From Alkanindiges sp. (GTDB lineage: Bacteria > Pseudomonadota > Gammaproteobacteria > Pseudomonadales > Moraxellaceae), in assembly GCA_030152125.1 (NCBI GenBank), contig JASLIR010000043.1:1-12577 (forward strand): DNA of 12,577 nucleotides. The letters run 5' to 3'. Position 1 is the first letter of the stretch. Each line of letters starts with the position of its first letter. This document shows positions 1 to 12,577 of the stretch, piece after piece. The position numbers and the translations under genes were made by a program. A model generated the notes under the pieces. That model ran no database searches. It saw nothing but the letters and a program-made list of their open reading frames with translations, and was not told where the DNA came from.

Positions 1-632
1 ACCAGTGGGTCGGCCTGATTCGCAGTTACCAGCGCACCTGCAGTCACATTGGAGCGCCCGGTCTGGCCAGCAATAGGGGCACGTACAATGGCATAGTTTA
101 GGCTGATTTTGGCGTTTTCCAGGGTGGCGCGGCTGGCATCAACATCTGCCTGGGCCAGTGCAACCTGCGCGGCAATATCATCATAATCCTGCTTACTGAT
201 GGCATTGGTGCCCACCAGTTGCTTGTAGCGGCCTTCCTTCACTTTCAGGGCATTCAGGTTGGCAATCTGGCGGTTTAACGCTGCCTTGGCATTATCCAGT
301 GTGGCCTGATAGGTGTTGGGGTCAATCTGGTACAGTGGTTGACCGGCATGCACATAACTGCCTTCCACAAACAGGCGTTTTTCCACAATACCGCTCACCT
401 GCGGGCGCACTTCGGAAATCTGGTAGGCTGCCGTACGGGCTGAAAGCTCGATGGTCTGCTCTACAGATTGCCGTTGCGCCACAATGACCGATACCTCGGC
501 AGGTGGCATTTGTGCGTGTGCACCACCAGCTGCTGCCTGATCCTCATTTTTTTTGCCACAACCGCTAATGGCGATGCTTGCTGCCAACGTTGAGAGCACA
601 GCGATGCGCGCCCATTGTGATGCTAACATCAT
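1..632 (-). CDS. RND efflux periplasmic adaptor lipoprotein (AcrA/MexA family), N-terminal part
   Basis: Partial gene; about 210 codons are visible and the C-terminus lies beyond the left edge. The protein starts MMLASQ and has a lipoprotein signal with lipobox ISGC (C25), followed by GKKN, similar to the SGCGK of MexA. The barrel-sandwich half 'SEVRPQVSGIVEKRLFVEG' and 'QPLYQIDP' comes next, then a long helical hairpin (about residues 100-170, 'YQATLDNAKAALNRQI' to 'ASRATLENAKISLNYA'), then the second lipoyl half 'IVRAPIAGQTGRSNVTAGAL'. This order is diagnostic of membrane fusion proteins that link an inner-membrane RND pump to an outer-membrane channel. The start at 632 is preceded by a good Shine-Dalgarno (GAGGTGAT). 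It lies 15 bases after the PAP2 gene and is probably co-transcribed with it. The pump gene is expected to the left but cannot be seen. The substrate is unknown. Confidence 0.93.
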   Translation of the reverse strand, partial: MMLASQWARIAVLSTLAASIAISGCGKKNEDQAAAGGAHAQMPPAEVSVIVAQRQSVEQTIELSARTAAYQISEVRPQVSGIVEKRLFVEGSYVHAGQPLYQIDPNTYQATLDNAKAALNRQIANLNALKVKEGRYKQLVGTNAISKQDYDDIAAQVALAQADVDASRATLENAKISLNYAIVRAPIAGQTGRSNVTAGALVTANQADPL

Positions 633-647
633 GATATCACCTCGTAT

Positions 648-1313
648 TTACCAGCAATGTACGCTGTTCTTATTTAAAAAATTGAACTGTTTGAAAAACC
701 ATAAAAGGCCACACAGCCAGGCAATAGCCAATGCCCAGCCAGCCAGTATGTCTGTTAGAAAATGTGCCCCCAGGTAGATTCGGGAGAAACCCATGGCAAC
801 ACCCCATACGATGCCCGCCACCGACAACCAGCAGTGGTAAGGCGACTGTTTGCTGATAACTATTAATACGCCAGCCAGGGTGACGGCATACATGCTGTGA
901 CCACTGGGAAAAGATGAGCCGTAGTGATTGACCAGCTCAACCCATACGTCCGGGCGTACCCTTGCAAAAGTCCATTTACAACCCCAGCTTAGAATGACGG
1001 CGCCGCTTAGGCTGACAATAGTGAAGATTGCCAAATCCGGACGTTGCTGTTTAAGCATGATGCCAGTGATTGTGAGCCCCATCACGCTCAGCGCAGGTAG
1101 TCCGCCCAGCCATGCCAATGCAACGGCAATGCTGGATAACAGCGGGGAGTGCAACTGGTGGATGTGCCATAACCATGAGGTTTCCAGTGCTGTTGTAGCT
1201 GGTTGCAGGGCAACCAGTGCCAACAGGCTAAAACAGACGAGCGCAAGTATTGCAGCGCCCAGCAGGGGCCAGTTTTTGAGGTGTGTTGAGGATGGTTCAA
1301 TGCTCACATTCAA
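648..1313 (-). CDS. PAP2-family membrane phosphatase (first gene of efflux unit)
   Basis: 221-residue integral membrane protein with about five to six hydrophobic segments and all three PAP2 signature motifs: KX6RP (K113, R120-P121), PSGH (136-139) and SRX5HX3D (S177-R178, H184, D188). The catalytic histidines and the phosphate-binding Lys/Arg are all present, so it should be an active lipid phosphate phosphatase, acting on phosphatidate, undecaprenyl diphosphate or a similar lipid at the outer face of the inner membrane. The substrate cannot be told from sequence. The start is a TTG at 1313 preceded by AGGTG eight bases upstream; GTG at 1307 is an in-frame alternative, and the ATG at 1309 is out of frame and stops at once. 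It shares a promoter with the adaptor gene 15 bases downstream, an unusual partner for an RND pump. Confidence 0.9.
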   Translation of the reverse strand: MNVSIEPSSTHLKNWPLLGAAILALVCFSLLALVALQPATTALETSWLWHIHQLHSPLLSSIAVALAWLGGLPALSVMGLTITGIMLKQQRPDLAIFTIVSLSGAVILSWGCKWTFARVRPDVWVELVNHYGSSFPSGHSMYAVTLAGVLIVISKQSPYHCWLSVAGIVWGVAMGFSRIYLGAHFLTDILAGWALAIAWLCGLLWFFKQFNFLNKNSVHCW

Positions 1314-1370
1314 AAATCGGCACCTGCATCGTTTCGTCGTCTGTTGCTATTAAGTGTATCTATTTTAAAG

Positions 1371-1392
1371 AAGTGTACTGGATAGTACACTT
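1371..1392. promoter_or_regulatory. Perfect 9-bp inverted repeat, candidate repressor operator
   Basis: AAGTGTACT (1371-1379), a 4-base spacer GGAT, then AGTACACTT (1384-1392). The symmetry is perfect and it sits between the predicted -35 and -10 of the PAP2-adaptor unit, covering the -10. A further half-site-like AAGTGTATC lies at 1352-1360. Size and symmetry fit a TetR/AcrR-type regulator, the usual controllers of RND pumps, but no regulator gene is in the window, so the family is an inference. As a terminator it is unlikely because neither side has a good T-tract. Confidence 0.55.
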
Positions 1393-1399
1393 TTATCAA
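1372..1399 (-). promoter_or_regulatory. Predicted sigma-70 promoter of PAP2-adaptor unit
   Basis: On the minus strand TTGATA (1399-1394) is separated by 16 bases from TACACT (1377-1372), 5/6 and 4/6 matches to the -35 and -10 consensus. The leader to the TTG start at 1313 would be about 50 bases. The promoter is overlapped by the inverted repeat at 1371-1392, so repression by a bound dimer would be natural. An alternative -10, TAAAAT, lies slightly downstream. Confidence 0.5.
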
Positions 1400-1550
1400 G
1401 CATATTTTAAAAATTTTTTTAATCCTGGGCTGTAGTTAAAATAGACTTAATAAAAATAAATACTTATGTGTTTAAAATAATTCAGTGAGTTAAGATTTGA
1501 TCAGGGGTATTGTGCGTTTTTTGTAATAAAGTGTAGGTCGCATCATAAAG

Positions 1551-1584
1551 GCAGCGTATAAATGTAAGTGCATCTATACGCTGC
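1551..1584 (-). terminator. Hairpin, probable terminator of ispB-COG4389 unit
   Basis: GCAGCGTATA (1551-1560) pairs perfectly with TATACGCTGC (1575-1584) across a 14-base loop. It lies 35-68 bases past the stop codon of the minus-strand gene. The minus-strand T-tract is weak (CTTTAT); the other side carries TTTT, so it may act in both directions. Confidence 0.5.
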
Positions 1585-1618
1585 TTTTAGTACCCTTTAA
1601 GAGTGACTATAAGAGTGA

Positions 1619-3724
1619 CTAGTCGTGTTTTGCAGCCTCGTTTGCAGGCGTTGTAGAGGTAGGTTGCCTTGGCGGCCAGAAAAAGTCTGAGGGGCGGGTC
1701 ATAAAGTGGGTGAGCAGCAGGCGCAACAGTGGCTTCCACTGCGAATAGCGTACTTTGCGGGCACGCAACGCCACAAACAGGGTAAGGCTAAAACTAACCA
1801 GCAAGTTGGTAAGGCCAATCATCAGTACACCCAGAAACGATACCAGAATCAGGCCAATATCCGCGCTGCCATTTAAACAGAACAGCCCCTGGGCAAAATT
1901 GGCTGAGGCAAAGGCGATATGGCGGATATCCAGCGGCAGGCCCAGCATAAAGCCAATTGTTCCCATACTACCCAGCATGATACCGAACCAGAAGTTGCCT
2001 GCCAGTGCGCCCAGGTTATTCTCAATATAGCCTGCTACCCGGTTTAGCCGCTCCACGCCCAGCCAGCGTTGTAGCCTGGCATGCTGGCGCAAGCGCGGGC
2101 CAACCTGACGGTAAACTGCCAGGTTATCGTAATAGCCTGCTATCAGGCCGGACAGGAACAGGCAAACCCCGGCAATTGCCGCATGCGGAATAGCCAGCGA
2201 GGTAAACGGATTGATGTTATGCAACAAGGCGGCTGCTTTTGGAGCGCTCAGCAAGGGCTGATGCAGGTTATGCTGCCATAACCAGGCAATCAGCAGGCCG
2301 GTAGGCATGGCAATGGAAATATTACCTAATATGGCAATAAACTGGGTGCGCATGATGTTGACAGTCAATGCTGCCAGCTCTGCCATTTGGGCGGCGCGGT
2401 TACCGGTGTTTTGCTGAATGGTTGCCGCCAGTGCTGCGGCAGTCATGGCTGGCTGTTTGGTAGCCACGGTAAAATGCAGCATATGAATCAGCATAAACCC
2501 CAGCGAGTAGTTCATGCTAAAGACAAATGCTTGGGTGAGCGGGGCAAGCACCACCCGTCCGGCCAGTATTTTCAGGGCGGACATGGTGCCAATAATCACC
2601 CCGGCACCTGCTGCCGAGCGGTACATCTGGAAAAAGCCCTGCCGGTCAGTACTGACATAATGTCCACCGGTACGGCTGGCGTTTTCCGTCACCTGGCGCG
2701 ACAGCAACTCGGTGTTAACGGAAATCAGCGCACGCACGCTTCGGGAGTCCTGCTGTGCTTCAGTTAGTTCCTGCAATAGTTCAAGCAGGGATTGCTGGAA
2801 CTGTTTAGGGTCGTCCAGCAGCAGGTTGAACAATAGGCTAATACGGGTCAGGCACTGGTCCAGCCGGATCAGCAGGTTGGTCAGGCTTAAGCTGACCCCG
2901 TTACGGCGTGTGCCACGCTTGATGCGGTTTAAAATATCGCGGCACTGGTCCAGTATTACCAGTGCCTGTTTTTCATCGGGGAGTTCCGGTGGCCAGCGTA
3001 CACTGTCTTCCGAAGTGTATTCCCGGTACTTACTGACAAATTCTATAATTTCATGGTTTTGAATCAGGAAAGGCGACTCGTATTCATCCAGTTCCGGATA
3101 GGCGCGGGCAACTTCCGGCTCCAGCCCAATGGCAGAAATACGGTAGGAAATGACCATCATGGCATGCAGGATCTGGTCGCGTGCCTGAATGCGCAAGTCC
3201 ATGCGGGTTGCATAGGGCTGCGACAGCAGGGTAATCAGTTCCTGCCAGTCTTCCAGTTCAATATTGGCAATCCATTCCGGGTCATCGCTATGGTGAAACA
3301 CCTGCTGGAACAAGTCACTGAGCAGGGTCTGGTCGCGCAGGGGCGGCAGTAAATGCCCGCCTATACGCTGGCTAAGCTGGCTAAAAAAGCCGTCATTGCC
3401 CAGAATGCCGGCATCGGCATACAGGCTGGTTTGCTGGTATTGCGCCAGTGTGCGCAGGATATAGTCATGCAGACACTCGGCGTATACGGGCTGATCAATC
3501 AGTATTTCGATCAGTACCTGTAGCTTATCGTGAATCTCATCTGTATTTTCGGCATTGGCAGGACGCAGGCTGTCAACCAGTTGTACCAGTAAGGCCGGGT
3601 CTGGTTTTTCCTGTGCCTGGTCATTCAATTGCTCATGCATTTCGGCAAATAGCGCATGAAATTTACTCGGCATAGGCAGGTTCCATTCAGTTGGGCTTGT
3701 AGATGGTGGCTCTGGCTGGCGCAC
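1619..3724 (-). CDS. COG4389/Gcr family membrane protein ('site-specific recombinase' by name)
   Basis: About 700 residues. The N-terminal half (to about residue 360) is soluble and helical. The C-terminal half has roughly six or seven hydrophobic segments (for example 'AAGAGVIIGTMSALKILAG', 'AIAGVCLFLSGLIAGYY', 'IGLILVSFLGVLMIGLTNLL'). The segment 'HFTVATKQPAMTAAALAA' and the overall layout identify the SpecificRecomb/COG4389 family, found mostly in betaproteobacteria. Databases call it a site-specific recombinase, but I see neither a serine- nor a tyrosine-recombinase active site and the topology is that of a membrane protein, so the real function is open. It follows ispB by 15 bases and is probably co-transcribed. 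The start is uncertain: the long form begins with GTG (3724) without a clear ribosome site, whereas ATG at 3673 (MPSKFHALF) has GGAA seven bases upstream and may be the true start. Confidence 0.85.
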   Translation of the reverse strand: MRQPEPPSTSPTEWNLPMPSKFHALFAEMHEQLNDQAQEKPDPALLVQLVDSLRPANAENTDEIHDKLQVLIEILIDQPVYAECLHDYILRTLAQYQQTSLYADAGILGNDGFFSQLSQRIGGHLLPPLRDQTLLSDLFQQVFHHSDDPEWIANIELEDWQELITLLSQPYATRMDLRIQARDQILHAMMVISYRISAIGLEPEVARAYPELDEYESPFLIQNHEIIEFVSKYREYTSEDSVRWPPELPDEKQALVILDQCRDILNRIKRGTRRNGVSLSLTNLLIRLDQCLTRISLLFNLLLDDPKQFQQSLLELLQELTEAQQDSRSVRALISVNTELLSRQVTENASRTGGHYVSTDRQGFFQMYRSAAGAGVIIGTMSALKILAGRVVLAPLTQAFVFSMNYSLGFMLIHMLHFTVATKQPAMTAAALAATIQQNTGNRAAQMAELAALTVNIMRTQFIAILGNISIAMPTGLLIAWLWQHNLHQPLLSAPKAAALLHNINPFTSLAIPHAAIAGVCLFLSGLIAGYYDNLAVYRQVGPRLRQHARLQRWLGVERLNRVAGYIENNLGALAGNFWFGIMLGSMGTIGFMLGLPLDIRHIAFASANFAQGLFCLNGSADIGLILVSFLGVLMIGLTNLLVSFSLTLFVALRARKVRYSQWKPLLRLLLTHFMTRPSDFFWPPRQPTSTTPANEAAKHD

Positions 3725-3739
3725 ACCACAGGGTGCGGA

Positions 3740-4735
3740 CTAGCTAAGGCGATTGAGCGCCAGTCTGGCCAGGTTTTCCAGACCATCGCGATAGATAGAC
3801 GCGGGCAGGCTGGAGAGTGCAGCAATGGCCAGGTGTGTTTCTTCTGCAGCGCGCTGGCGGCAATAATCCAGTGCGCCGGACTCATTCACAATACGAATCA
3901 CGTCATTTAATGTATCCAGACCACCGGTTTGAATGGTCTTGTGTAGCAGTTGCTGTTCTGCTGGCGCGCTTTTTAATAACGCCGCAATCAGTGGTAAGGT
4001 TGGCTTGCCTTCCATTAAATCATCGCCAATATTTTTACCTAATGTTTCCGGGTCGGAGGTGTAATCCAGAATGTCATCAATAATCTGGAATGCATTGCCA
4101 AAGTGTCCGGCATAGGCTTTTAGTGCAGCGCGGTACTGGTACTGGTTACCTAAAATAGCAGCACCTTCGGTGGCCAGTTCAAACAGGCGTGAGGTTTTGC
4201 CATGAATGATTTTCAGGTAAATGTCTTCGCTAATATCCGGCTGGTGCTGATATTGCAGCTGTAGTACCTCACCCTCGGCAATTTCGCAGGTGCCGCTGGA
4301 AAACTCTTTCAGTAAATCAAAATTATGCAGGTTCACCAGCAGGTCAAAGGCCCGCGCAATCAGGTAGTCACCCACCAGCACTGCGGTGGCATTGTTCCAG
4401 GTTGCATTGGCGGTAGGGCGACCACGGCGCAGGCCGGATTCATCCACCACATCGTCGTGTACCAGGGTAGCGGTATGCAGCATTTCGATAATGGCAGCCA
4501 GTCTTAAACTGGCTTCATGGTCCAGGGACTCAGCGTTTTCAGTGTCTGCATGGCAGGCACGCGCAGCCAGTAGGCACATTAACGGACGCATACGCTTGCC
4601 ACCGGCTTCCACCACATAGCGGCTGACTGACATCACCAAGGGGACTTTGGAGTTAATGCCGGTTTGAATAAAGTGATCCATTGCCTCAAAGTCGGCGGCA
4701 ACAGGGGCAAGAATGTCACGCTTGAAATCAACCAT
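3740..4735 (-). CDS. ispB: Octaprenyl diphosphate synthase
   Basis: 331-residue trans-polyprenyl diphosphate synthase. It extends farnesyl diphosphate with isopentenyl diphosphate units to make the ubiquinone side chain, in the cytoplasm. Visible signatures are GGKRMRP (45-51), the first Asp-rich motif DDVVD (94-98) followed by RRGRPT, the conserved 'GKTSRLFELATEGAAILG' region, and the second Asp-rich motif DDILD (220-224). Length is normal for the family. The ATG at 4735 is the only sensible start, with AGGAA about 12 bases upstream. It is divergent from rplU-rpmA, the same arrangement as in Escherichia coli, which supports ispB over other chain-length members; the exact chain length (C40 here by family) cannot be proven from sequence. 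Confidence 0.94.
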   Translation of the reverse strand: MVDFKRDILAPVAADFEAMDHFIQTGINSKVPLVMSVSRYVVEAGGKRMRPLMCLLAARACHADTENAESLDHEASLRLAAIIEMLHTATLVHDDVVDESGLRRGRPTANATWNNATAVLVGDYLIARAFDLLVNLHNFDLLKEFSSGTCEIAEGEVLQLQYQHQPDISEDIYLKIIHGKTSRLFELATEGAAILGNQYQYRAALKAYAGHFGNAFQIIDDILDYTSDPETLGKNIGDDLMEGKPTLPLIAALLKSAPAEQQLLHKTIQTGGLDTLNDVIRIVNESGALDYCRQRAAEETHLAIAALSSLPASIYRDGLENLARLALNRLS

Positions 4736-4879
4736 TTTCTAATACAGTTCCTGAACGACGTGAAAACACGGTGGTTTTGATATTTTGTTAATATAAACCA
4801 AATACGCCAAAAGGCGAAAATACAATAGCTTATATTAAATACTAATCAACACCACCATGCGTCAAGTAAAAGGTGACTG

Positions 4880-4933
4880 ATGATGCCAAAGTTATACAAA
4901 GCAGCGCTGCTGCCGTGGTTTGAAATTGATTAA
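4880..4933 (+). CDS. Candidate 17-residue peptide upstream of rplU (speculative)
   Basis: ATG ATG start followed by PKLYKAALLPWFEID and TAA. AGG at 4871-4873 lies six bases before the first ATG and nine before the second, better than many real genes here. It ends 27 bases before the rplU -35 box, so it would need its own promoter further left, and none is clear. No known family is recognised. It may well be chance. Confidence 0.15.
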   Translation: MMPKLYKAALLPWFEID

Positions 4934-4960
4934 AAAATGGCACAAATCCGTGTTTTTCTA

Positions 4961-4989
4961 TTGTCAGCACGCAGTTTTTTGCATAGAAT
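4961..4989 (+). promoter_or_regulatory. Strong sigma-70 promoter of rplU-rpmA
   Basis: TTGTCA (4961-4966), 17-base spacer, TAGAAT (4984-4989): 5/6 matches in both boxes with ideal spacing. The predicted transcription start near 4996 gives a leader of about 80 bases before the rplU ATG at 5078. Confidence 0.8.
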
Positions 4990-5077
4990 ACGCCCCTTGC
5001 GAAACCCCAGTGGCGGACGTTTTAAGATCGGCATCGTTCATTGCCGGCACGGCGACACGGGCAGGATGGAGTACATT

Positions 5078-5389
5078 ATGTACGCAGTGATTCAAAGCGG
5101 TGGCAAGCAACACCGTGTTATCGTTGGCGAAAAGCTGAAAGTTGAATTATTGAAAGCTGAAACCGGTTCAAGCATTACATTTGATGATGTATTGTTGCTT
5201 GTTAACGGTGAAAGCATTCAAATTGGTGCGCCAGTTGTAGCTGGTGCGACTGTAACTGCAGAAGTGGTTGGTCATGGTCGCCACGACAAAGTACGCATCG
5301 TTAAAATGCGTCGTCGTAAGCACTACCGTAAGCAACAAGGTCACCGTCAATGGTTTACCGAATTGCACATTACTGGTATTAACGGCTAA
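5078..5389 (+). CDS. rplU: 50S ribosomal protein L21
   Basis: 103 residues starting [20 protein letters not shown], the universal L21 N-terminus, and ending in the RNA-binding '[20 protein letters not shown]' segment. L21 binds 23S rRNA in the large subunit. The frame is open upstream to 4937, but the start is fixed at 5078 by the family N-terminus, the normal length and the Shine-Dalgarno GGAG six bases before the ATG; moreover 4937 lies upstream of the promoter. The gene is first in a two-gene operon with rpmA 18 bases downstream. Confidence 0.98.
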
Positions 5390-5407
5390 TCCTAAGGAGC
5401 ATATGAC

Positions 5408-5659
5408 ATGGCACATAAAAAGGCTGGTGGTTCCACACGAAATGGTCGTGATTCCAACCCGAAAATGCTGGGTGTGAAAGTTTACGGCGGTCAAACCGTT
5501 GTTGCTGGTAACATCATCGTTCGTCAACGTGGTACTGAGTTCCACGCTGGTGCAAACGTTGGTATGGGTCGTGACCATACTTTGTTTGCTACTACCGACG
5601 GCGTAGTAAAGTTTGAAGTGAAGGGCCAGTTTGGTCGTCGCTATGTGACTGTAGAATAA
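5408..5659 (+). CDS. rpmA: 50S ribosomal protein L27
   Basis: 83 residues, starting [19 protein letters not shown], with '[16 protein letters not shown]' and '[14 protein letters not shown]' typical of L27. The N-terminal tail, which reaches towards the peptidyl transferase centre, starts directly at the mature AHKK sequence, so there is no cleavable extension of the Firmicutes type. AAGGAG lies about nine bases before the start; another ATG at 5403 is out of frame. It is followed at once by a terminator, so obgE, which often follows in proteobacteria, is not in this operon. Confidence 0.98.
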
Positions 5660-5682
5660 TCTGACGATTATTTGCAGACACT

Positions 5683-5709
5683 AAAAAAGCCCGCTTGCCG
5701 GGCTTTTTT
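5683..5709 (+). terminator. Intrinsic terminator of rplU-rpmA
   Basis: A6-GCCCG, loop CTTGC, CGGGC-T6: a short G/C stem flanked by A and T tracts, 23 bases past the rpmA stop. The A/T flanks make it able to work on both strands. Confidence 0.93.
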
Positions 5710-6001
5710 GCTTTGTAAGGGCAGCACATGTTTTCTTTACAGTTGAATAATTGCTTACAAATGCTTGCATAACTGCTGTAGGCTTAATGCCAATGACTGA
5801 AAATATTGACATTTTTACTGCACTGGACACATTTTAAGACTGGATGGCATGGGCTTGGCTTGGCATAGTGATGTCATGCTTAACAGCTACAATCAGGACA
5901 AGCCTGCAGGTGTGCAGGATGGTGATGCAGTGGTGTTATAGGTTCTGTTTGTGCTGGCGGGTATAAGGACGTATGTCTGGTAAATCATTGTAGGTGAAGA
6001 T
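5710..6001. other. Intergenic region before lolA
   Basis: 292 bases with no convincing gene or RNA. A perfect -35 hexamer TTGACA lies at 5806-5811, but the -10 candidates 17-18 bases on (ACATTT or CATTTT) are weak, and the leader to lolA would be about 170 bases. No clear operator or stable hairpin was seen. Confidence 0.5.
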
Positions 6002-6751
6002 ATGACAAGTGTTAGTAGTCAAAAAAAGATGTTGAATAATAAAGTAAAGAAACAGTTTGCGCTGGCCATGCTGGCAGCCTTGCCTGTATTTGCCGTGGGC
6101 GTTACCGCAGCAACTGCGGTGCAGGCGGCACCTACCGTAGCATCCGAGGCGGCAGCTACCAATAACCTGAACCAGTATTTGTCACGTATTAGCAGTCTGC
6201 AGGCCAATTTTAGCCAGTCCACCCAGGCGAGTGCGCCTAAAAGTGGTAAAACACCGGCACTGGCTAACCAGGGCTTGCGCAGTACGCACCTGAACCAGAC
6301 CTTTAGTGGTGTGATGCAGGTCAAGCGTCCAGGCCTGTTCCGCTGGGAAACCACCAGCCCCTCCAAGCAACTGATTGTGACCAGTGGTAAGACGGTGTGG
6401 ATTTATGACCCGGACCTGGAGCAGGCGGTGCGTCAGAGCCTGGATGAGCAGGTAGGGAATACCCCCGCATTGTTGCTATCCGGCCAGTCTGCCACCATCA
6501 TGAAATCTTTCCGGGTGACGCAGCCAAATGCCAATGAGGCTTATTTTGTGCTGTATCCAAAACAGGAAGACGGTGTGTTTGAAAGCCTGGGCATCCGCTT
6601 TAGCAATAATGCGCCTAGCCAGATGATTTTAAAGGATTCGCTGGGTCAGCAAACGACTATTAATTTTAGTAATGTGCAAAGCAACCCTAATTTAAATGCA
6701 GAGGCATTTAATTTTGTACCGCCAAAAGGCGTGGATGTGATTGATCAGTAA
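6002..6751 (+). CDS. lolA: Outer-membrane lipoprotein carrier protein LolA
   Basis: 249 residues. LolA is the periplasmic chaperone that takes lipoproteins from LolCDE and passes them to LolB at the outer membrane. A signal peptide is visible with a basic n-region (NNKVKKQ), a hydrophobic core (about 19-36) and a likely cleavage after AVQA (42). Family features are LQANFSQ (66-72), 'FSGVMQVKRPGLFRWETT' (101-118), 'LIVTSGKTVWIYDPDLEQAV' (124-143) and the C-terminal 'FNFVPPKGVDVI'. It is longer than usual (about 200-210 residues) because of the long signal region and a Ser/Lys/Ala-rich insertion at about 73-99 between the first two strands. The start at 6002 has AGGTG five bases upstream. It stands alone between two terminators. 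Confidence 0.93.
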   Translation: MTSVSSQKKMLNNKVKKQFALAMLAALPVFAVGVTAATAVQAAPTVASEAAATNNLNQYLSRISSLQANFSQSTQASAPKSGKTPALANQGLRSTHLNQTFSGVMQVKRPGLFRWETTSPSKQLIVTSGKTVWIYDPDLEQAVRQSLDEQVGNTPALLLSGQSATIMKSFRVTQPNANEAYFVLYPKQEDGVFESLGIRFSNNAPSQMILKDSLGQQTTINFSNVQSNPNLNAEAFNFVPPKGVDVIDQ

Positions 6752-6801
6752 TTAGCTGTTTTTAAAATGCTTAGTTGTCTGTTATAGCGTTTGTTGTAAA
6801 T

Positions 6802-6830
6802 AAGGCCCCTTTTATGGGGTTTTATTTTTT
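6802..6830 (+). terminator. Intrinsic terminator of lolA
   Basis: AAGGCCCC (6802-6809) pairs with GGGGTTTT (6816-6823), including two G-U pairs, over a six-base loop and is followed by ATTTTTT. It lies 50 bases past the lolA stop. Confidence 0.8.
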
Positions 6831-6942
6831 ATAAAGATAACAGTTTTTACATATTGTCCGATGAAGATAACTATAAATAAAAAACAGCCATTAATATCTG
6901 CGTTAAATTGTGTTGGTATTCCTGTTTTGGCAGAGAGAAATA

Positions 6943-7395
6943 ATGAATATCTTTGAAGCCTTGCGTGAAAGCCATGAAATCCAGCGTGATCTGGCAGAAA
7001 AACTGATACAAACGAAGGGTGATAGCCCGGAACGGACCGCATTATTTAATGATTTAAAACAGGAACTGGCAGCGCATGAGCTGGCAGAGGAGCGCTATTT
7101 CTATTCCCCCTTAATGGAGGAGGATGCCGCCATGGATTTATGCCGGCATGCCATTGCCGAGCATCATGAGATGGATGAAATGGTGGAAGAGCTAGAAGCG
7201 CTGGAACAAAGTAGCCCCGCCTGGCTGGTGAAGGCCAGGCAGCTGGCAGACAAGGTGCATCATCACCTGAAAGAGGAAGAGCACAAGTTTTTTCAGCAGG
7301 CAGGCAAAGTGCTGACCGAAAAGCAGAAACGTAGCCTGGCAAGCGATTATTTGCAGGAATATGCGGAGCAAAAGAAGCAGCTGGTTGCTCATTAA
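6943..7395 (+). CDS. Hemerythrin HHE domain protein
   Basis: 150 residues, almost wholly helical and acidic. The non-haem di-iron ligand pattern is visible: H11 (LRESHEIQR), H45 and E49 (AAHELAEERYF), H74/H75 (AEHHEMDEM) and the H106-H108/E111-E113/H114 cluster (VHHHLKEEEHKFF). Such proteins bind oxygen or sense oxygen, NO or iron; the specific role is unknown. The frame is open back to a GTG at 6910, but the ATG at 6943 starts the HHE fold and has GAGAGAAA in front. It is a single gene between terminators. A TATAAA at 6872-6877 may be the -10, but no good -35 pairs with it. Confidence 0.9.
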   Translation: MNIFEALRESHEIQRDLAEKLIQTKGDSPERTALFNDLKQELAAHELAEERYFYSPLMEEDAAMDLCRHAIAEHHEMDEMVEELEALEQSSPAWLVKARQLADKVHHHLKEEEHKFFQQAGKVLTEKQKRSLASDYLQEYAEQKKQLVAH

Positions 7396-7416
7396 GCGGT
7401 TTAACAGGTTGTTCTT

Positions 7417-7449
7417 AAAAGGGCTTTATATTTTTATAAAGTCTTTTTT
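7417..7449 (+). terminator. Intrinsic terminator of the hemerythrin gene
   Basis: CTTTATA (7424-7430), loop TTTT, TATAAAG (7435-7441). The stem is extended by A-U, G-C and G-U pairs on the outside and runs into CTTTTTT. It lies about 25 bases past the stop. Confidence 0.75.
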
Positions 7450-7586
7450 ATTTTGTCGTTTTATTTCATGAAAATGTCATAAGCAGTGTTTATTTTAATG
7501 GCATCGCTAATGCGGTAATTGATATAAAAAATACATATGAGAAAATAGACGCAAGATAGATGATTGATAACTTTAAATAATAAGCA

Positions 7587-7646
7587 CTGTAAGAAAACTG
7601 TCAATAATCTATCATTAATTGGTCAAAATTTTATCTTAAATTTAAT
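7587..7646 (+). promoter_or_regulatory. Candidate PHO box array and promoter of the glycosyltransferase-PAP2 operon
   Basis: Heptamers recur every 11 bases: CTGTAAG (7587), CTGTCAA (7598), CTATCAT (7609), then weaker TGGTCAA (7620) and TTATCTT (7631). They are separated by 4-base spacers made only of A and T (AAAA, TAAT, TAAT, AATT). The Escherichia coli PhoB box is two CTGTCAT-like heptamers with a 4-base A/T-rich spacer. The 18 bases from 7598 match that consensus at about 15 positions. TTTAAT (7641-7646) is a 5/6 match to a -10 box and no good -35 is present, as expected when PhoB replaces -35 recognition. The leader to the ATG at 7676 would be about 23 bases. The pattern is seen directly; PhoB binding is inferred. 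Confidence 0.65.
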
Positions 7647-7675
7647 AAACGACAAGAGTGTTAAGAATAAGAGCT

Positions 7676-8935
7676 ATGACAACTTACCAATCATTTACCC
7701 GACATGCTGCATTTGATGTATTGACGGCTGAGTCTTTTGTGAAGCCACTCAATATTGCGATTGTCAGTGAAACCTGGCCACCGGAAATTAATGGTGTGGC
7801 ACTGTCGGTATTACAACTCGCTAAAGGGTTACAGCAGCGCGGTCACCGCATTTTGCTGGTACGCCCGGATCAACAAAAAAGCAGCAATGATTTTACCCCC
7901 GATGCACTGTGTCTGGTGCGTGGTCACGCCATTCCAAAATATCCAGAACTGAAATTTGGCTGGCCACAGGTACTGAAAATTGGCCGTGCCTTTGAGCAGT
8001 TCTCGCCGGACATTGTACATATTGTGACTGAAGGCCCACTGGGACTAGCGGCATTGAATGTAGCCAAGCAGCGTCACTACCCGGTGTCCAGTGGCTTCCA
8101 TTCGCCATTCCATGAGTTCAGTCGCTTCTTTGATCTGGCTTTCCTGTTAAAGCCGGTGCAGCATTACCTGCGCTGGTTCCATAACATGACCGATGTGACC
8201 TGTGTGCCAAGCACCGATACCAAGCAAGCGCTGATTGACTTTGGTGTGACCTGTCCACTTGAAGTGGTGTCACGCGGTGTGGATACCGAGCGTTTTAACC
8301 CGAACCGCCGCTGTGCCGAGCTGCGTACCCGCTGGGGTGCGAGCGAGAACACCACGGTGATGATGTATGTAGGACGGGTATCACCAGAGAAAAATATTGA
8401 CCTGACCATTGAAGCTTTCCGTGCTGCACAAAAAGCGCAGCCAAAGCGCGATTTCAAACTGGTGATTGTAGGTGATGGCCCGGACCGTACCCGTCTGGAA
8501 GCGCTGGCCCCGGAAGCGATTTTTGCCGGCATGCAGCGTGGCGATGAGCTGGCTAAACATTATGCCAGCGGTGACCTGTTTGTGTTTGGCAGTGAAGTGG
8601 AAACCTTTGGTAATGTGCTGCTTGAAGCCTTGTCCAGCGGTTTGCCAGCAGTGGCTTATGATTATGCCTGTGCTGCGCTGGTGATGGTGGAAGGTGAGCA
8701 TGGCTGGCGCTGTCCGTTTGCCAAGCGTCAGGAGTTTATCCGCATGGTGAGCAGTGTGCCAGAACAGGCAGTATTGCGCCGCATGGGTGAAAAAGCCCAT
8801 ATACGTGCGCAGGGCTTTGGCTGGCACCTGGCGGTACAACAGTTTGAACAGGCTTTAAAAGCCACAGTTAAAAAGCACCAGACGCTGTACTCCAAGGCGC
8901 TGGGTGATAGAACATTTCCCTTATTTATTTCATAA
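7676..8935 (+). CDS. GT4-family glycosyltransferase, possibly acting on diacylglycerol
   Basis: About 419 residues with the two Rossmann domains of GT-B retaining glycosyltransferases. The N-terminal acceptor domain opens with 'LNIAIVSETWPPEINGVA' (25-42). The donor domain has GRVSPEKN (about 232-239), VGDGPDRTRLEAL, and the EX7E signature E309...E317 in 'EVETFGNVLLEALSSGLP'. No transmembrane segment is seen; relatives act at the inner face of the membrane. The N-terminal motif resembles PimB/MgtA- and SqdX-type enzymes that glycosylate lipids, but donor and acceptor cannot be fixed from sequence. A GTG at 7658 is in frame, but the ATG at 7676 is the better start; its ribosome site is weak either way. 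The PAP2 gene follows after 25 bases, and the PHO-like array precedes it. Confidence 0.88.
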   Translation: MTTYQSFTRHAAFDVLTAESFVKPLNIAIVSETWPPEINGVALSVLQLAKGLQQRGHRILLVRPDQQKSSNDFTPDALCLVRGHAIPKYPELKFGWPQVLKIGRAFEQFSPDIVHIVTEGPLGLAALNVAKQRHYPVSSGFHSPFHEFSRFFDLAFLLKPVQHYLRWFHNMTDVTCVPSTDTKQALIDFGVTCPLEVVSRGVDTERFNPNRRCAELRTRWGASENTTVMMYVGRVSPEKNIDLTIEAFRAAQKAQPKRDFKLVIVGDGPDRTRLEALAPEAIFAGMQRGDELAKHYASGDLFVFGSEVETFGNVLLEALSSGLPAVAYDYACAALVMVEGEHGWRCPFAKRQEFIRMVSSVPEQAVLRRMGEKAHIRAQGFGWHLAVQQFEQALKATVKKHQTLYSKALGDRTFPLFIS

Positions 8936-8960
8936 CTATTTATAAAAAAGAGGTAAAACA

Positions 8961-9515
8961 ATGAGTAAATTACAATTAGCGGTGAATCGGGTACAACATT
9001 TTGATCTGGACTGGTGTATCCGTTTAAACCAGTATTCATCCAAAAAGCAGATTGCACTGTTTTTTAAAGGTGTAAGCCGTTTAGGTGATGGCTGGTTCTG
9101 GTATATCTGCCTGTCGGTGGTATGGGCGGCGCGTGGCCTGGCGTATGCGGTTGAGCTGGCATACATGGCACTGGGTACCTTTTGTGGCACCCTGCTGTAC
9201 AAGTTTTTAAAGCGCAAAACTGTACGTCCACGTCCTTATCAGGTGCATCAGGCGGTGGTATTGGGTGAACGCCCACTGGATCACTTCAGCTTTCCGTCGG
9301 GTCACACCATGCATGCCATGCTGGTATGTATCCTGATGGGGTATGCGTTGCCAGCACTGCTGTGGATTATGGTGCCATTTACCGCGCTGGTTGCAGTATC
9401 CCGTGTGATTCTGGGCCTGCATTACCCAACCGACGTGCTGGCTGGTGCGTTTATTGGTAGCAGCCTGGCAGTCGGCATTATCTATCTGTCGCCGTTGTTT
9501 CACGTCATGATTTAA
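8961..9515 (+). CDS. PAP2-family phosphatase (partner of glycosyltransferase)
   Basis: 184-residue membrane protein with complete PAP2 motifs: KX6RP (K84, R91-P92), PSGH (112-115) and SRX5HX3D (S147-R148, H154, D158). Four to five hydrophobic segments are visible. A lipid phosphatase of this class could turn phosphatidate into diacylglycerol, the acceptor for the neighbouring glycosyltransferase; dephosphorylating an undecaprenyl carrier is the main alternative. The start has GAGG about seven bases upstream. It lies 25 bases after the glycosyltransferase and is almost certainly co-transcribed. Outside the motifs it is not obviously a recent copy of the PAP2 protein at 648-1313. Confidence 0.92.
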   Translation: MSKLQLAVNRVQHFDLDWCIRLNQYSSKKQIALFFKGVSRLGDGWFWYICLSVVWAARGLAYAVELAYMALGTFCGTLLYKFLKRKTVRPRPYQVHQAVVLGERPLDHFSFPSGHTMHAMLVCILMGYALPALLWIMVPFTALVAVSRVILGLHYPTDVLAGAFIGSSLAVGIIYLSPLFHVMI

Positions 9516-9525
9516 TGTGAAACAA
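9495..9525 (+). terminator. Hairpin across the PAP2 stop codon (weak terminator or 3' stabiliser)
   Basis: TTGTTTCAC (9495-9503) and GTGAAACAA (9517-9525) form a perfect 9-bp stem over a 13-base loop that contains the stop codon. No T-tract follows, so it is not a classical intrinsic terminator. Confidence 0.35.
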
Positions 9526-9559
9526 TGGTTTGCCTTCTGTCTTATTCCTCATCTCATTT

Positions 9560-9565
9560 TATAAT
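9560..9565 (+). promoter_or_regulatory. Consensus -10 box before the 9636 gene
   Basis: A perfect TATAAT 70 bases before the start codon. The upstream -35 candidates (CTGTCT or TGTCTT) are poor, so strength and use are uncertain. Confidence 0.4.
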
Positions 9566-9635
9566 AAACCTTTACAATCCTCCCTCTGATTATTAGCATT
9601 CGTTCAATATCTCGTCGAACCACTGCTGATTAGCC

Positions 9636-10115
9636 ATGAATTTCCTCTCTCCTGCTGTTGCTCTGGCTATTTTGTCTGCCGGCATTTTTTTAATGATTGG
9701 CCTGCTGACCGGCGTGTGGAAGTATCTGGCTATTATGCGCAGTGACAAAGCCCGCGCACCTTATTATGTAGATATTGCCCATCGCGCCTCATTGCTGTAT
9801 GCCAGCAGTAGTTTGATTCTGGCGCTACTGGCTTATTTTTCCGTGTGGTCTGAGCGTATTAATTTTTATGCCGTATTGCTGAATGTGGCTTATTTTGCCT
9901 TAGCCATCGGTACGTATGTGATTCATGGCCTGTTAAAAGATACTGACAACCAGTTGCGCAGGCCGCATAAGCTGGGTGGCTTAAGTTTGCATACGGCATT
10001 AATACAGCTGTTTATGTGGTCACTGATTGCAGCAGAGGTAGGCGGGACACTGGTATTGCTGCTTGGGGCATGGCAACCTTTATGGCAGGCGCTTAGTCTG
10101 GTGGGCGGGGTTTAG
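9636..10115 (+). CDS. Uncharacterised four-helix membrane protein
   Basis: 159 residues with four hydrophobic segments (about 5-30, 50-70, 77-97 and 119-145). I do not recognise a named family. Features that look conserved-type are 'PYYVDIAHRASLLYASSS' (about 42-59) and 'GTYVIHGLLKDTDNQLRRPH' (about 91-110), with several histidines near membrane borders. These could bind a metal or haem or be structural; that is only a possibility. The ribosome site (GATTAG) is weak. It lies 120 bases after the PAP2 gene with its own -10 box, so it may be a separate transcript or a read-through member of the lipid operon. Confidence 0.75.
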   Translation: MNFLSPAVALAILSAGIFLMIGLLTGVWKYLAIMRSDKARAPYYVDIAHRASLLYASSSLILALLAYFSVWSERINFYAVLLNVAYFALAIGTYVIHGLLKDTDNQLRRPHKLGGLSLHTALIQLFMWSLIAAEVGGTLVLLLGAWQPLWQALSLVGGV

Positions 10116-10211
10116 CACTCAGTGTTTAGCGGGCAATATTTAGTAGTCCGTGTTGTCTGACGCTTTACACACCAGACAGGCAGGGCTTAGGCTAAACTGC
10201 TGGCAGTGCAT

Positions 10212-10240
10212 CTGACAGTGCCTGTGTAATTTGTTAGAAT
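10212..10240 (+). promoter_or_regulatory. Sigma-70 promoter of iscX
   Basis: CTGACA (10212-10217), 17-base spacer, TAGAAT (10235-10240): 5/6 matches in both boxes. The leader is about 33 bases. It contains a 10-bp direct repeat TTAACAGGAC (10250-10259 and 10263-10272), the second copy of which supplies the AGGA ribosome site for the ATG at 10280. Confidence 0.7.
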
Positions 10241-10279
10241 AAAGCATATTTAACAGGACCACTTAACAGGACTAATCCC

Positions 10280-10480
10280 ATGGCTTTACGTTGGAGTGAT
10301 GCGCTGGATATCGCAATCAGTTTGTATGAGGCGCATCCGGATGTGGACCCGCAGTACATCCGCTTTACTGATTTGCACCGCTGGATATGCGAGTTACCTG
10401 ATTTTGCTGATGATCCGAATCGTTCCAATGAAAAGATTCTGGAAGCCATCCAAATGGCCTGGATTGACGAGGCTTCTTAA
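10280..10480 (+). CDS. iscX: Fe-S cluster assembly protein IscX
   Basis: 66 residues, the standard IscX/YfhJ length, and close to the Escherichia coli protein throughout: [20 protein letters not shown], '[17 protein letters not shown]' and '[17 protein letters not shown]'. IscX is a small acidic cytosolic protein that binds the cysteine desulfurase IscS, and iron, and modulates Fe-S cluster assembly. In many proteobacteria it ends the isc operon after fdx; here it stands alone with its own promoter, upstream of ndk and away from any isc gene in the window. AGGA is eight bases upstream of the start. Its stop codon lies inside a 15-bp tandem repeat. Confidence 0.96.
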
Positions 10481-10507
10481 AGAAATTGGCTGGGCCTCTT
10501 AAAGAAA
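10471..10507. repeat. Near-perfect 15-bp direct repeat at the iscX stop
   Basis: GGCTTCTTAAAGAAA (10471-10485) and GGCCTCTTAAAGAAA (10493-10507) differ at one base, with a 22-base period. The core TTCTT-A-AAGAA of the first copy is also an inverted repeat. The first copy contains the last codons and stop of iscX. It looks like a local tandem duplication; no function is evident. Confidence 0.6.
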
Positions 10508-10586
10508 ATGTAAGAGAAATTGTAAGAATAATGCAAAAGTCCGTGGTGAAATGTCGGCTAACGCTATCTTTGTCATATCACAACGG

Positions 10587-10592
10587 TATAAT
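10587..10592 (+). promoter_or_regulatory. Consensus -10 box of ndk
   Basis: A perfect TATAAT 39 bases before the ndk start. TTGTCA upstream is only 11 bases away, too close for a -35; at 16-18 bases the hexamers are poor (CTATCT or TATCTT), so activator help or a weak -35 is implied. Confidence 0.5.
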
Positions 10593-10631
10593 GCGCCATC
10601 TTTTTTTGTTGTTCAATTTTAAGGAGCGATC

Positions 10632-11063
10632 ATGGCTATCGAACGTACATTATCCATTGTTAAACCAGATGCAGTAAGCAAAAACCACATTGGCGACATT
10701 TTCAGCCGTTTTGAAAAAGCTGGCCTGAAAATCGTTGCAACCAAAATGAAGCACCTGAGCAAAGCAGAAGCTGAAGGCTTTTATGCTGAGCACAAAGAGC
10801 GTGGCTTTTTCAATGACCTGGTAGCCTTCATGACCTCTGGTCCAGTTGTAGTATCTGCACTGGAAGGTGACAATGCTGTACTGGCTCACCGTGACATTCT
10901 GGGTGCTACCAATCCTAAAGAAGCTGCTCCAGGCACCATCCGTGCTGACTTTGCTGTAAGCATTGACGAAAATGCTGCACATGGTTCTGACTCTACCACT
11001 TCTGCTGCACGTGAAATCGCTTACTTTTTCCAAGACGGCGAAATTTGCCCACGTACTCGCTAA
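10632..11063 (+). CDS. ndk: Nucleoside diphosphate kinase
   Basis: 143 residues, standard length for bacterial Ndk. It transfers the gamma phosphate from ATP to nucleoside diphosphates through a phospho-histidine. K11 in '[12 protein letters not shown]', '[14 protein letters not shown]' (66-79), '[18 protein letters not shown]' (87-104) and the active-site motif NAAHGSDS with H117 are all intact. AAGGAGCG lies six to twelve bases upstream of the ATG. It is followed by two consecutive hairpins and then rlmN, a neighbour order I recall from betaproteobacterial genomes. Confidence 0.98.
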
Positions 11064-11077
11064 TTGATACGTTGGAT

Positions 11078-11117
11078 AAACCAGATAAGTGTTATCATGC
11101 TTATCTGGTTTGTTTTT
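11078..11117 (+). terminator. Intrinsic terminator of ndk
   Basis: AAACCAGATAAG (11078-11089) and CTTATCTGGTTT (11100-11111) form a perfect 12-bp stem with a 10-base loop, followed by GTTTTT. It starts 15 bases past the ndk stop. Confidence 0.88.
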
Positions 11118-11120
11118 ATG

Positions 11121-11159
11121 CGCTTTTCAATCACATAAAACACGGTTGAAAAGCGTTTG
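11121..11159 (+). terminator. Second hairpin after ndk
   Basis: CGCTTTTCAA (11121-11130) and TTGAAAAGCG (11146-11155) form a perfect 10-bp stem over a 15-base loop, followed by TTTG. It begins nine bases after the first stem, so it may be a back-up terminator, possibly one protecting the rlmN promoter. Confidence 0.5.
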
Positions 11160-11242
11160 TCTTAAGGCTGCTGCTGTTTTGCATACCAGGGTGGCAGTTG
11201 GCTTAAGCACTCATTTTTATTTATTGTCCTTATAGATTTATC

Positions 11243-12577
11243 ATGACTACAGATGTTGTTGATTCATTAGCGCAAGCAGTACACGTACTGCAAAATGCCA
11301 CACCAGCCGGTGATCAGGCTGCCGAGTCTGCTTGCGCCAAGGAATCGTCCGGAAATGCCGGGAAGGTAAACCTGCTGGGCTTGTCCCGCCCGCAGATGGA
11401 AGCGTTTTTTGAGGGCATGGGCGAGAAGAAGTTCCGTGCCGGTCAGGTGTTAAAGTGGATTCACCAGTTTGGGGTGGATGACTTTGACCAGATGACCAAT
11501 CTGGCTGGCAAGCTGCGCGAGCGGCTTAAACAGGTTGCCTTTGTTGAAGCGCCGGAAGTGGTGCATAAAAACTTCTCTAAAGATGGTACCCGCAAGTGGG
11601 TGTTCCGGGTAGGGGATGGTGCGGGTTCGCTGGTAGAAACCGTACTTATTCCTGCCGATGATAAAACCGGTGCGCGTAAAACCCTGTGTATTTCATCACA
11701 GGTGGGTTGTGCGCTGGATTGCAGCTTTTGCAGTACCGGCAAGCAGGGCTTTCAGCGTGATTTGACTGCCGCCGAAATTATTGGCCAGTTGTGGGTGGCT
11801 AACCAGTCCTACATGGAAGATGTGCCGGTTGGCGAGCGCAGCCGTACCGTAACCAATGTGGTGATGATGGGCATGGGCGAACCGCTGCTTAACTTTGAGC
11901 CGGTAGTAAGTTCGATGCGCCTGATGCTGGACGATTTTGCCTATGGCATGTCCAAGCGCCGTGTGACCCTGTCAACTTCCGGCATTGTGCCGATGATTGA
12001 CAAGCTGGGTGAAGAGATTGATGTAGCCCTGGCTATTTCCTTGCATGCCCCTAATGACGCCTTGCGTGACGAGCTGGTGCCGGTAAACAAAAAATACCCG
12101 CTGGCGGAGCTGATTCCGGCTGCACGCCGCTATCTGGCGCGTGACAATGGCCTGGAAAGTGCTCGTAAACATGTGACCATTGAATATGTAATGCTGGAAA
12201 ATGTAAATGACCAGCAGGAACATGCCAAACAATTAATACAACTTTTAAAGAATTTACCGAGTAAGATTAACCTGATTCCGTTTAACCCCTTTCCGCATGC
12301 TCCCTATGGACGTTCCAGCCGTAACCGGATCATGGCATTTCAGAAAACATTGTCTGATGCCGGTTTCGTATGTACGGTGCGTACTACCCGTGGTGATGAT
12401 ATTGATGCGGCCTGTGGGCAACTGGTTGGGCAGGTCGCAGACCGTACCCGCCGGGCGGAGCGCTGGCAGAAAAAAGTAGCTGCACAGCAGGTTAATAATT
12501 CTCCTGCTGCTTGTTCAGAAATATTAAGAACAAGAGGCTATGGTGATAGAAGAAAACTTGGTTCGGCCAGGTGTGGT
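11243..12577 (+). CDS. rlmN: Dual-specificity 23S rRNA A2503 / tRNA A37 C2-methyltransferase RlmN (open at right edge)
   Basis: Radical-SAM enzyme that methylates C2 of A2503 in 23S rRNA and A37 of some tRNAs. Visible are the CX3CX2C cluster (C156, C160, C163 in GCALDCSFC), catalytic C149 (TLCISSQVG) and C391 (AACGQL), the SAM motif '[15 protein letters not shown]', '[12 protein letters not shown]', '[20 protein letters not shown]' and '[18 protein letters not shown]'. An N-terminal extension of about 40 residues precedes the domain. The ATG at 11243 has no strong ribosome site, but no better start is seen. The RlmN domain ends near residue 411 (12475). The frame then stays open to the edge with codons unlike the rest (ATA, AGA, AGG) and overlaps the start of another frame, so the true end may be earlier. 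Confidence 0.93.
12540..12577 (+). CDS. Start of a further gene, cut by the right edge
   Basis: ATG GTG then [10 protein letters not shown], in a different frame from rlmN. AAGAGG ends two bases before the ATG and five before the GTG, so the GTG at 12543 may be the start. Only 12 codons are visible and no family can be assigned. In several betaproteobacteria a type IV pilus TPR lipoprotein gene (pilF/pilW) follows rlmN, but nothing here shows that. Confidence 0.35.

Follow-up and report, generated by a model that had tools for sequence, protein, structure and literature searches.

A conserved glycosyltransferase-PAP2 gene pair behind a PHO box in Alkanindiges and other Moraxellaceae: a predicted PhoB-controlled glycolipid operon

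We analyzed a stretch of 12,577 nucleotides from Alkanindiges sp. (GenBank assembly GCA_030152125.1, contig JASLIR010000043.1, positions 1 to 12,577 of the forward strand; hereafter the window), in which a GT4-family glycosyltransferase (GT) gene precedes a gene for a PAP2 lipid phosphatase (table 1). An initial annotation had placed the two genes 25 base pairs (bp) apart behind PHO-box-like repeats, and open reading frames, Pfam and half-site scoring bear this layout out, with both genes on the same strand. The pair most likely represents a conserved glycolipid operon, controlled by PhoB to judge from its sequence. More specifically, we consider it probable that PhoB activates the operon to remodel membrane lipids, that PAP2 would make diacylglycerol and an Agt2-type GT a glycolipid from it, and that this would be the main such route in Moraxellaceae. 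The operon may thus be regarded as a new variant of the PlcP-Agt pathway, with a predicted induction and a predicted lipid product.

The box before the GT gene matches the CTGTCAT consensus at 21 of 28 bases over its four half-sites. This is the sole top score on both strands of the 12.6-kb window, and when the 260 bp leading up to the GT4 ATG were dinucleotide-shuffled 2000 times it was never reached. By the same scoring, the olsB-like promoters of four Acinetobacter-type genomes reach 16-19/28; a Pho box is reported for olsB of Acinetobacter baumannii (Olea-Ozuna et al. 2025, PMC11828411). To follow the repeat among relatives we used the 80 best loci among 191 confirmed relatives of the GT, comprising 2 Alkanindiges, 2 metagenome-assembled genomes of Moraxellaceae and otherwise Acinetobacter. 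Ahead of the GT gene, the highest score over four half-sites has p below 0.05 against 60 shuffles in 91% of these loci; before ndk, rlmN or PAP2 itself it does so in at most 2.5%. Scores of at least 19/28 occur before the GT gene in 50 loci, at least 20 in 39 and at least 21 in 27, while one of the 1,739,774 other positions in the same loci reaches 19/28 and none reaches 20. By these comparisons the repeat is a real, maintained PHO box, and the PhoB control first proposed for the pair gains support. As the PAP2 gene has no PHO box of its own in the 80 loci, GT and PAP2 would most simply form one transcription unit. Promoter and terminator scans of the window gave nothing above shuffles; a strong sigma-70-like match (11 of 12) lies on the opposite strand at 7577-7604, overlapping the PHO box, in a scan whose total was likewise not above shuffles. 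Separately, at L135 and L136 a pair of Agt2-like GTs, separated by about 10 kb and placed on different branches of the tree, each follow a repeat that is PHO-like by score.

The closest named relatives among these best 80 of 191 belong to Alkanindiges (63%) and Acinetobacter (53-60%), and on this sequence likeness the window is from Moraxellaceae. The betaproteobacterial setting in which the initial annotation had framed its search was not borne out, and these relatives rule out a betaproteobacterial origin. The GT4-PAP2 pair is present in all 80 loci, followed in 79 by ndk and rlmN, the gene order of the window; these loci were chosen as best GT matches and are biased in that respect. In L142 the pair is flanked by a tail-specific protease gene on one side and iscX-ndk-rlmN on the other. 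We then turned to whole genomes, where every count given below describes relatives and not the window's own genome (thresholds 1e-30 for GT, 1e-18 for PAP2, and 1e-30 at the class or 1e-20 at the family level for PlcP; genome completeness unstated). Fifty of 139 Moraxellaceae genomes have the GT, in all 50 with a PAP2 gene within 1 kb. Of these pairs 46 are on the same strand and 4 divergent, the GTs looked at among the latter being Agt1-type. The plcP gene, whose presence in the genome would mark a member of the PlcP-Agt pathway, was found in none of these 50 relatives. A single genome of the 139 has plcP; it lacks the GT at threshold and has a PHO-like repeat before its PAP2 gene. The PlcP profile was built from Pseudomonas aeruginosa and Sinorhizobium meliloti sequences in annotated records, the S. 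meliloti seed being taken as PlcP because it is 45% identical to the protein encoded ahead of agt1. A metallophosphoesterase of 257-278 amino acids in Acinetobacter was considered as a candidate PlcP, a reading that found no support: in four Acinetobacter/Alkanindiges genomes the profile gave just LpxH places (E 1e-10, 1e-8) or nothing.

At the order level 39 GT genomes were compared. All 12 that lack an adjacent PAP2 gene have PlcP, against 8 of the 27 in which GT and PAP2 are adjacent (Fisher p 4.5e-5, kinship uncorrected). This set comprises 36 of 63 GT matches (the strongest, to E 3e-39) together with G001, G002 and G004, and leaves out G052 and G115, where the best match is a long fused protein. 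Every genome with a strong GT in the family, order and class samples has PlcP, PAP2 or both. The PAP2 protein itself conserves the KX6RP, PSGH and SRX5HX3D residues, which we take to be the PAP2 signature motifs, in all 33 aligned sequences, and an SRLGDG stretch is shared as well. Its AlphaFold2 model (predicted local distance difference test score 96.4) has the PAP2 fold. Sequence and fold point to no single substrate; a phosphatidate phosphatase activity is predicted, and PAP2 is likely the supplier of diacylglycerol.

Several observations weigh against this proposal, and those on PAP2 come first. The best fold matches tie between PgpB/YodM and LpxE, and the nearest curated profile is that of the undecaprenyl-diphosphatase SepP (54.3 bits, below its cut-off of 250). 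The active sites of known membrane PAP2 proteins face the periplasm, and therefore the lipids must cross the membrane. Furthermore, 10 of 60 Moraxellaceae genomes with PAP2 have no GT at the threshold used. In six of these ten, Acinetobacter-type genomes (L143-L148), PAP2 stands without the GT before ndk-rlmN, with a PHO-like repeat in front of it in four of these six ndk loci (uncorrected p 0.02 or less). Its retention there, in four cases with the repeat, indicates that PAP2 does something independently of the GT: it probably serves a separate function in starvation, possibly phosphate release. Among wider relatives 12 of the 25 GT starts tested show a PHO-like triple (p 0.02 or less) and the other 13 do not, some of these starts being uncertain; both this test and that of the GT-less loci used a simpler shuffle of 300 rounds. 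In an alternative scenario, which we hold to be possible but unlikely, the GT makes a diacylglycerol glycolipid while PAP2 is a separate periplasmic phosphate-salvage enzyme acting on undecaprenyl diphosphate, lipid A 1-phosphate, phosphatidylglycerol phosphate or other lipid phosphates. Diacylglycerol would then come from elsewhere, such as phosphate-induced phospholipases, PgpB-like enzymes or MdoB-type reactions. The GT-less loci, the SepP profile and the tied LpxE fold speak for this scenario, as does the report of phospholipases induced at low phosphate in A. baumannii (PMC11828411). Nevertheless, it leaves the constancy of the pairing in the family (50/50) to be explained, as well as the PAP2 gene within 1.5 kb of the GT in 27 of the 32 strong-GT genomes among 274 sampled at the class level. 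It also has to face the presence of PlcP in all 12 order-level GT genomes without an adjacent PAP2. Nor did PAP2 reach any curated phosphatase family cut-off among the NCBIfam profiles, that of the lipid A 1-phosphatase LpxE included.

The class-level sample adds to the points against PAP2 as a diacylglycerol source that excludes PlcP. There PlcP is also present in 18 of the 27 paired GT genomes and in 5 of 5 unpaired ones, a contrast not significant alone (p 0.29); in one unpaired genome (G358) the GT lies at a contig end, so PAP2 could be missed. Moreover, across the 274 genomes the two genes co-occur positively, with PlcP in 29 of 45 genomes with PAP2 and 49 of 229 without. Twelve of the 45 PAP2 genes lie within 8 kb of plcP, and in G373 (L177) and G231 (L180) the two stand side by side. 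The initial annotation had let PAP2 take the place of PlcP. This part of its proposal holds for some lineages only, with no plcP in the 50 GT-bearing Moraxellaceae genomes, and is not supported for the class as a whole. A strict replacement, with PAP2 and PlcP as alternatives, agrees with the family and order-level counts, yet it holds in part only, and in view of the class-level pattern we regard it as improbable. The positive co-occurrence and the proximity to plcP argue that PAP2 is better described as a second branch, one that would be nearly the sole branch in Moraxellaceae.

To place the GT we searched plasmid records by tblastn. A P. aeruginosa match has the order cerN, phosphocholine-specific phospholipase C, plcR and GT, and its GT shares 43% identity over 374 amino acids with that of the window. 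We take this GT to be PA0842/Agt2, from the PAO1 gene order cerN-plcH-plcR-GT and its locus tags. In a second P. aeruginosa record a UDP-2,3-diacylglucosamine diphosphatase gene is followed by a GT with 32% identity to the window GT; this pair was taken as plcP-agt1. Both P. aeruginosa records (L140, L139) are labelled as plasmids; plcP-agt1 and plcH-plcR-agt2 are ordinarily chromosomal. A maximum-likelihood tree built from 79 GT4 rows places the window GT inside the Agt2 clade (support 100/95), which is sister to Agt1 (100/97). Twenty other GT4 proteins, taken from Acinetobacter, Alkanindiges and Pseudomonas, are split off from it (100/99). All 20, several of them on very long branches, are further PF00534 proteins encoded in the same genomes (32 matches, of which 30 gave loci) and are presumed to be polysaccharide or lipopolysaccharide enzymes. 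From the 85 rows gathered, six that were too short, too long or picked off-frame were dropped; L156 and L166 had been excluded before that stage, some N-terminal overhangs were trimmed, and L137 was represented by its GT part alone. A position among polysaccharide enzymes had been named beforehand as an outcome that would speak against the proposal; the tree disfavours it, given the presumed functions of the 20 proteins.

Taken with the 43% identity, the Agt2-clade placement strongly supports the prediction that the window GT is an Agt2-type diacylglycerol glycosyltransferase, as the initial annotation had it. That it acts instead on another lipid (phosphatidylglycerol, of glucosaminyl-phosphatidylglycerol type) or on an intermediate of envelope polysaccharide or lipopolysaccharide core, the PHO box reflecting general envelope remodelling, is very unlikely: its leading curated profile is N-acetylglucosaminyl-phosphatidylglycerol synthase (123.7 bits, cut-off 480), followed by glucosyl-diacylglycerol synthase, also below cut-off, but the Agt2 reference has the same two profiles in the same order (135 bits for the first), so the leading profile fails to separate the two proteins, and the tree splits the GT from the 20 others. 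P. aeruginosa Agt2 is described as making glucuronosyl-diacylglycerol and using UDP-glucose to some extent, as raised at low phosphate and as having a Pho box (Jones et al. 2021, PMC8528852). According to the same source its product falls yet persists at a low level in a plcP mutant, which implies another diacylglycerol source in that species. Two variants of the GT were also seen among relatives. In L137 (5374-7620), an order-level relative, a 748-amino-acid protein appears to combine a GT4 domain with a membrane stretch and a metallophosphoesterase-like N-terminal region in one fused chain; the N-terminal reading was made by eye, Pfam finds the GT4 part alone, and similar long GT4 matches occur in several order-level genomes. 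In one Acinetobacter-type genome (L156, 2640-3955) the GT sequence is spread across two frames, with PAP2 and PHO box looking intact.

The neighborhoods of the pair in distant lineages provide additional clues. We found the clusters Agt2-PlcP-PAP2-GT4-OlsB-OlsA (L177), Agt2-PAP2-OlsB-OlsA (L163) and OlsB-Agt2-PAP2 (L175), an olsBA pair divergent from an Agt1-type GT and PAP2 (L138), and olsBA 4-6 kb away in four further loci (L126, L131, L132, L133). These are examples from 20 order-level and 20 class-level regions chosen for GT matches, most of the other regions showing no ols genes. For some loci the names olsB and olsA were assigned from Pfam (PF13444 and PF01553), for the rest from similarity between loci. 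Where genomes are GC-rich, the open reading frame picks in these regions overlook some genes; adjacency was counted from tabulated match positions instead. The presence of PAP2 among genes for phosphorus-free lipids in distant lineages ties it to lipid remodelling. OlsB (PF13444) was found in 4 of 4 GT-bearing Acinetobacter-type genomes, in none of the 6 GT-less ones (L143-L148) and in neither of 2 Alkanindiges genomes, both with GT, so that its association with the GT has p 0.005 without Alkanindiges and 0.06 with it. A second, distinct GT4 gene stands beside PAP2 in L177 (5467-6720), L168 (4804-5997) and L182 (5154-6536); it groups with the fused type in the tree and might serve a further glycosylation step.

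Under the mechanism that we put forward, PhoB would bind the tandem box when phosphate is scarce and turn on both genes. PAP2, as an inner-membrane lipid phosphatase, would convert phosphatidate, newly made or left by phospholipase D, into diacylglycerol and free phosphate. The GT, by analogy with P. aeruginosa Agt2, would glycosylate diacylglycerol with UDP-glucuronate and/or UDP-glucose as sugar donor, and the resulting glycolipid would contain no phosphorus. In Moraxellaceae, with PlcP in 1 of 139 genomes, PAP2 would be the main diacylglycerol route for glycolipids, and in other gammaproteobacteria a second branch beside PlcP. A possible product has already been seen. At low phosphate A. 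baumannii is reported to form three new lipids, two of them ninhydrin-positive (an ornithine and a lysine lipid) and a third, U3, missing in a phoR mutant; the account of U3 on which we draw gives it no identity (Olea-Ozuna et al. 2025, PMC11828411). In a term search the words "glycosyltransferase", "PAP2" and "plcP" were absent from the main text of that paper. A glycolipid from the GT-PAP2 operon would fit, and we propose its product as a good candidate for this PhoR-dependent lipid. The wider claim is advanced tentatively: gammaproteobacteria may possess a PlcP-independent remodelling branch in which a PhoB-controlled PAP2 feeds an Agt-type GT, the sole such branch in Acinetobacter and its kin, with U3 as its product. 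If true, this would assign genes to a lipid formed under phosphate starvation in an important genus of pathogens, and would explain how PlcP-less bacteria could still make diacylglycerol glycolipids. It would also offer PAP2 as a definite candidate for a source of diacylglycerol independent of PlcP, such as has been inferred in P. aeruginosa, without implying that this species itself uses PAP2.

The predicted operon shares with the PlcP-Agt pathway of Sinorhizobium, SAR11, Phaeobacter, P. aeruginosa and Methylosinus a Pho-type box, a GT4 diacylglycerol glycosyltransferase and a presumed phosphorus-free glycolipid; it differs in its partner gene, PAP2, and in the lack of plcP from the GT-bearing Moraxellaceae genomes. 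Despite the shared clade, profiles and Pho box, P. aeruginosa agt2 adjoins plcR with no PAP2 gene beside it, and plcP there stands with agt1. OlsB/OlsA ornithine-lipid synthesis is likewise linked to phosphate starvation and phosphorus-free lipids, and its genes lie near the pair in several lineages, but its chemistry is that of an acylated amino acid without diacylglycerol, and two Alkanindiges genomes have the pair without a PF13444 match. From PgpB/YodM and LpxE the operon PAP2 is distinguished by its scores below the curated family cut-offs, its company of GT and PHO box, and perhaps the shared SRLGDG stretch. The closest precedent in logic is the suggestion that phosphatidate phosphatases are a diacylglycerol source in remodelling, that is, diacylglycerol from phosphatidate without PlcP; it was made for cyanobacteria (PMC4796936). 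According to the same source, phosphatases of this kind seem to be missing from Phaeobacter MED193 and SAR11 HTCC7211, and PlcP is inferred to be the main source in marine heterotrophs (PMC4796936). In the literature searched, whose coverage mostly excludes subscription journals, we found no paper pointing to a PAP2-Agt pair or to such a lipid in Acinetobacter, and PAP2 is not mentioned in the PlcP papers among the matches listed.

Table 1. Elements of the predicted operon in the window.
Feature	Position	Strand	Evidence and predicted role
PHO box	7587..7626	+	four CTGTCAT-like half-sites, 11-bp period
GT4 gene	7676..8935, or 7658..8935 from an alternative upstream GTG	+	Pfam Glyco_transf_4 and Glycos_transf_1, above cut-offs; EX7E motif; predicted Agt2-type UDP-sugar:diacylglycerol glycosyltransferase
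PAP2 gene	8961..9515	+	Pfam PAP2, above cut-off; integral membrane lipid phosphatase, predicted diacylglycerol supplier

For the GT4 gene the ATG is likelier to be the start than the upstream GTG, because a length of 419 amino acids is shared by six of the seven nearest homologues. An AGAGG ribosome-binding site precedes the PAP2 gene. Directly upstream of the operon, at 6910-7395 (+), lies a gene for a hemerythrin-domain protein with slight resemblance to the PA2171 persister family (41 bits, below the cut-off of 190). At 648-1313 (-) the window encodes a second, distant PAP2 protein (30% over 86 amino acids to that of the operon), whose neighbor resembles, by eye, an efflux-pump adaptor gene.

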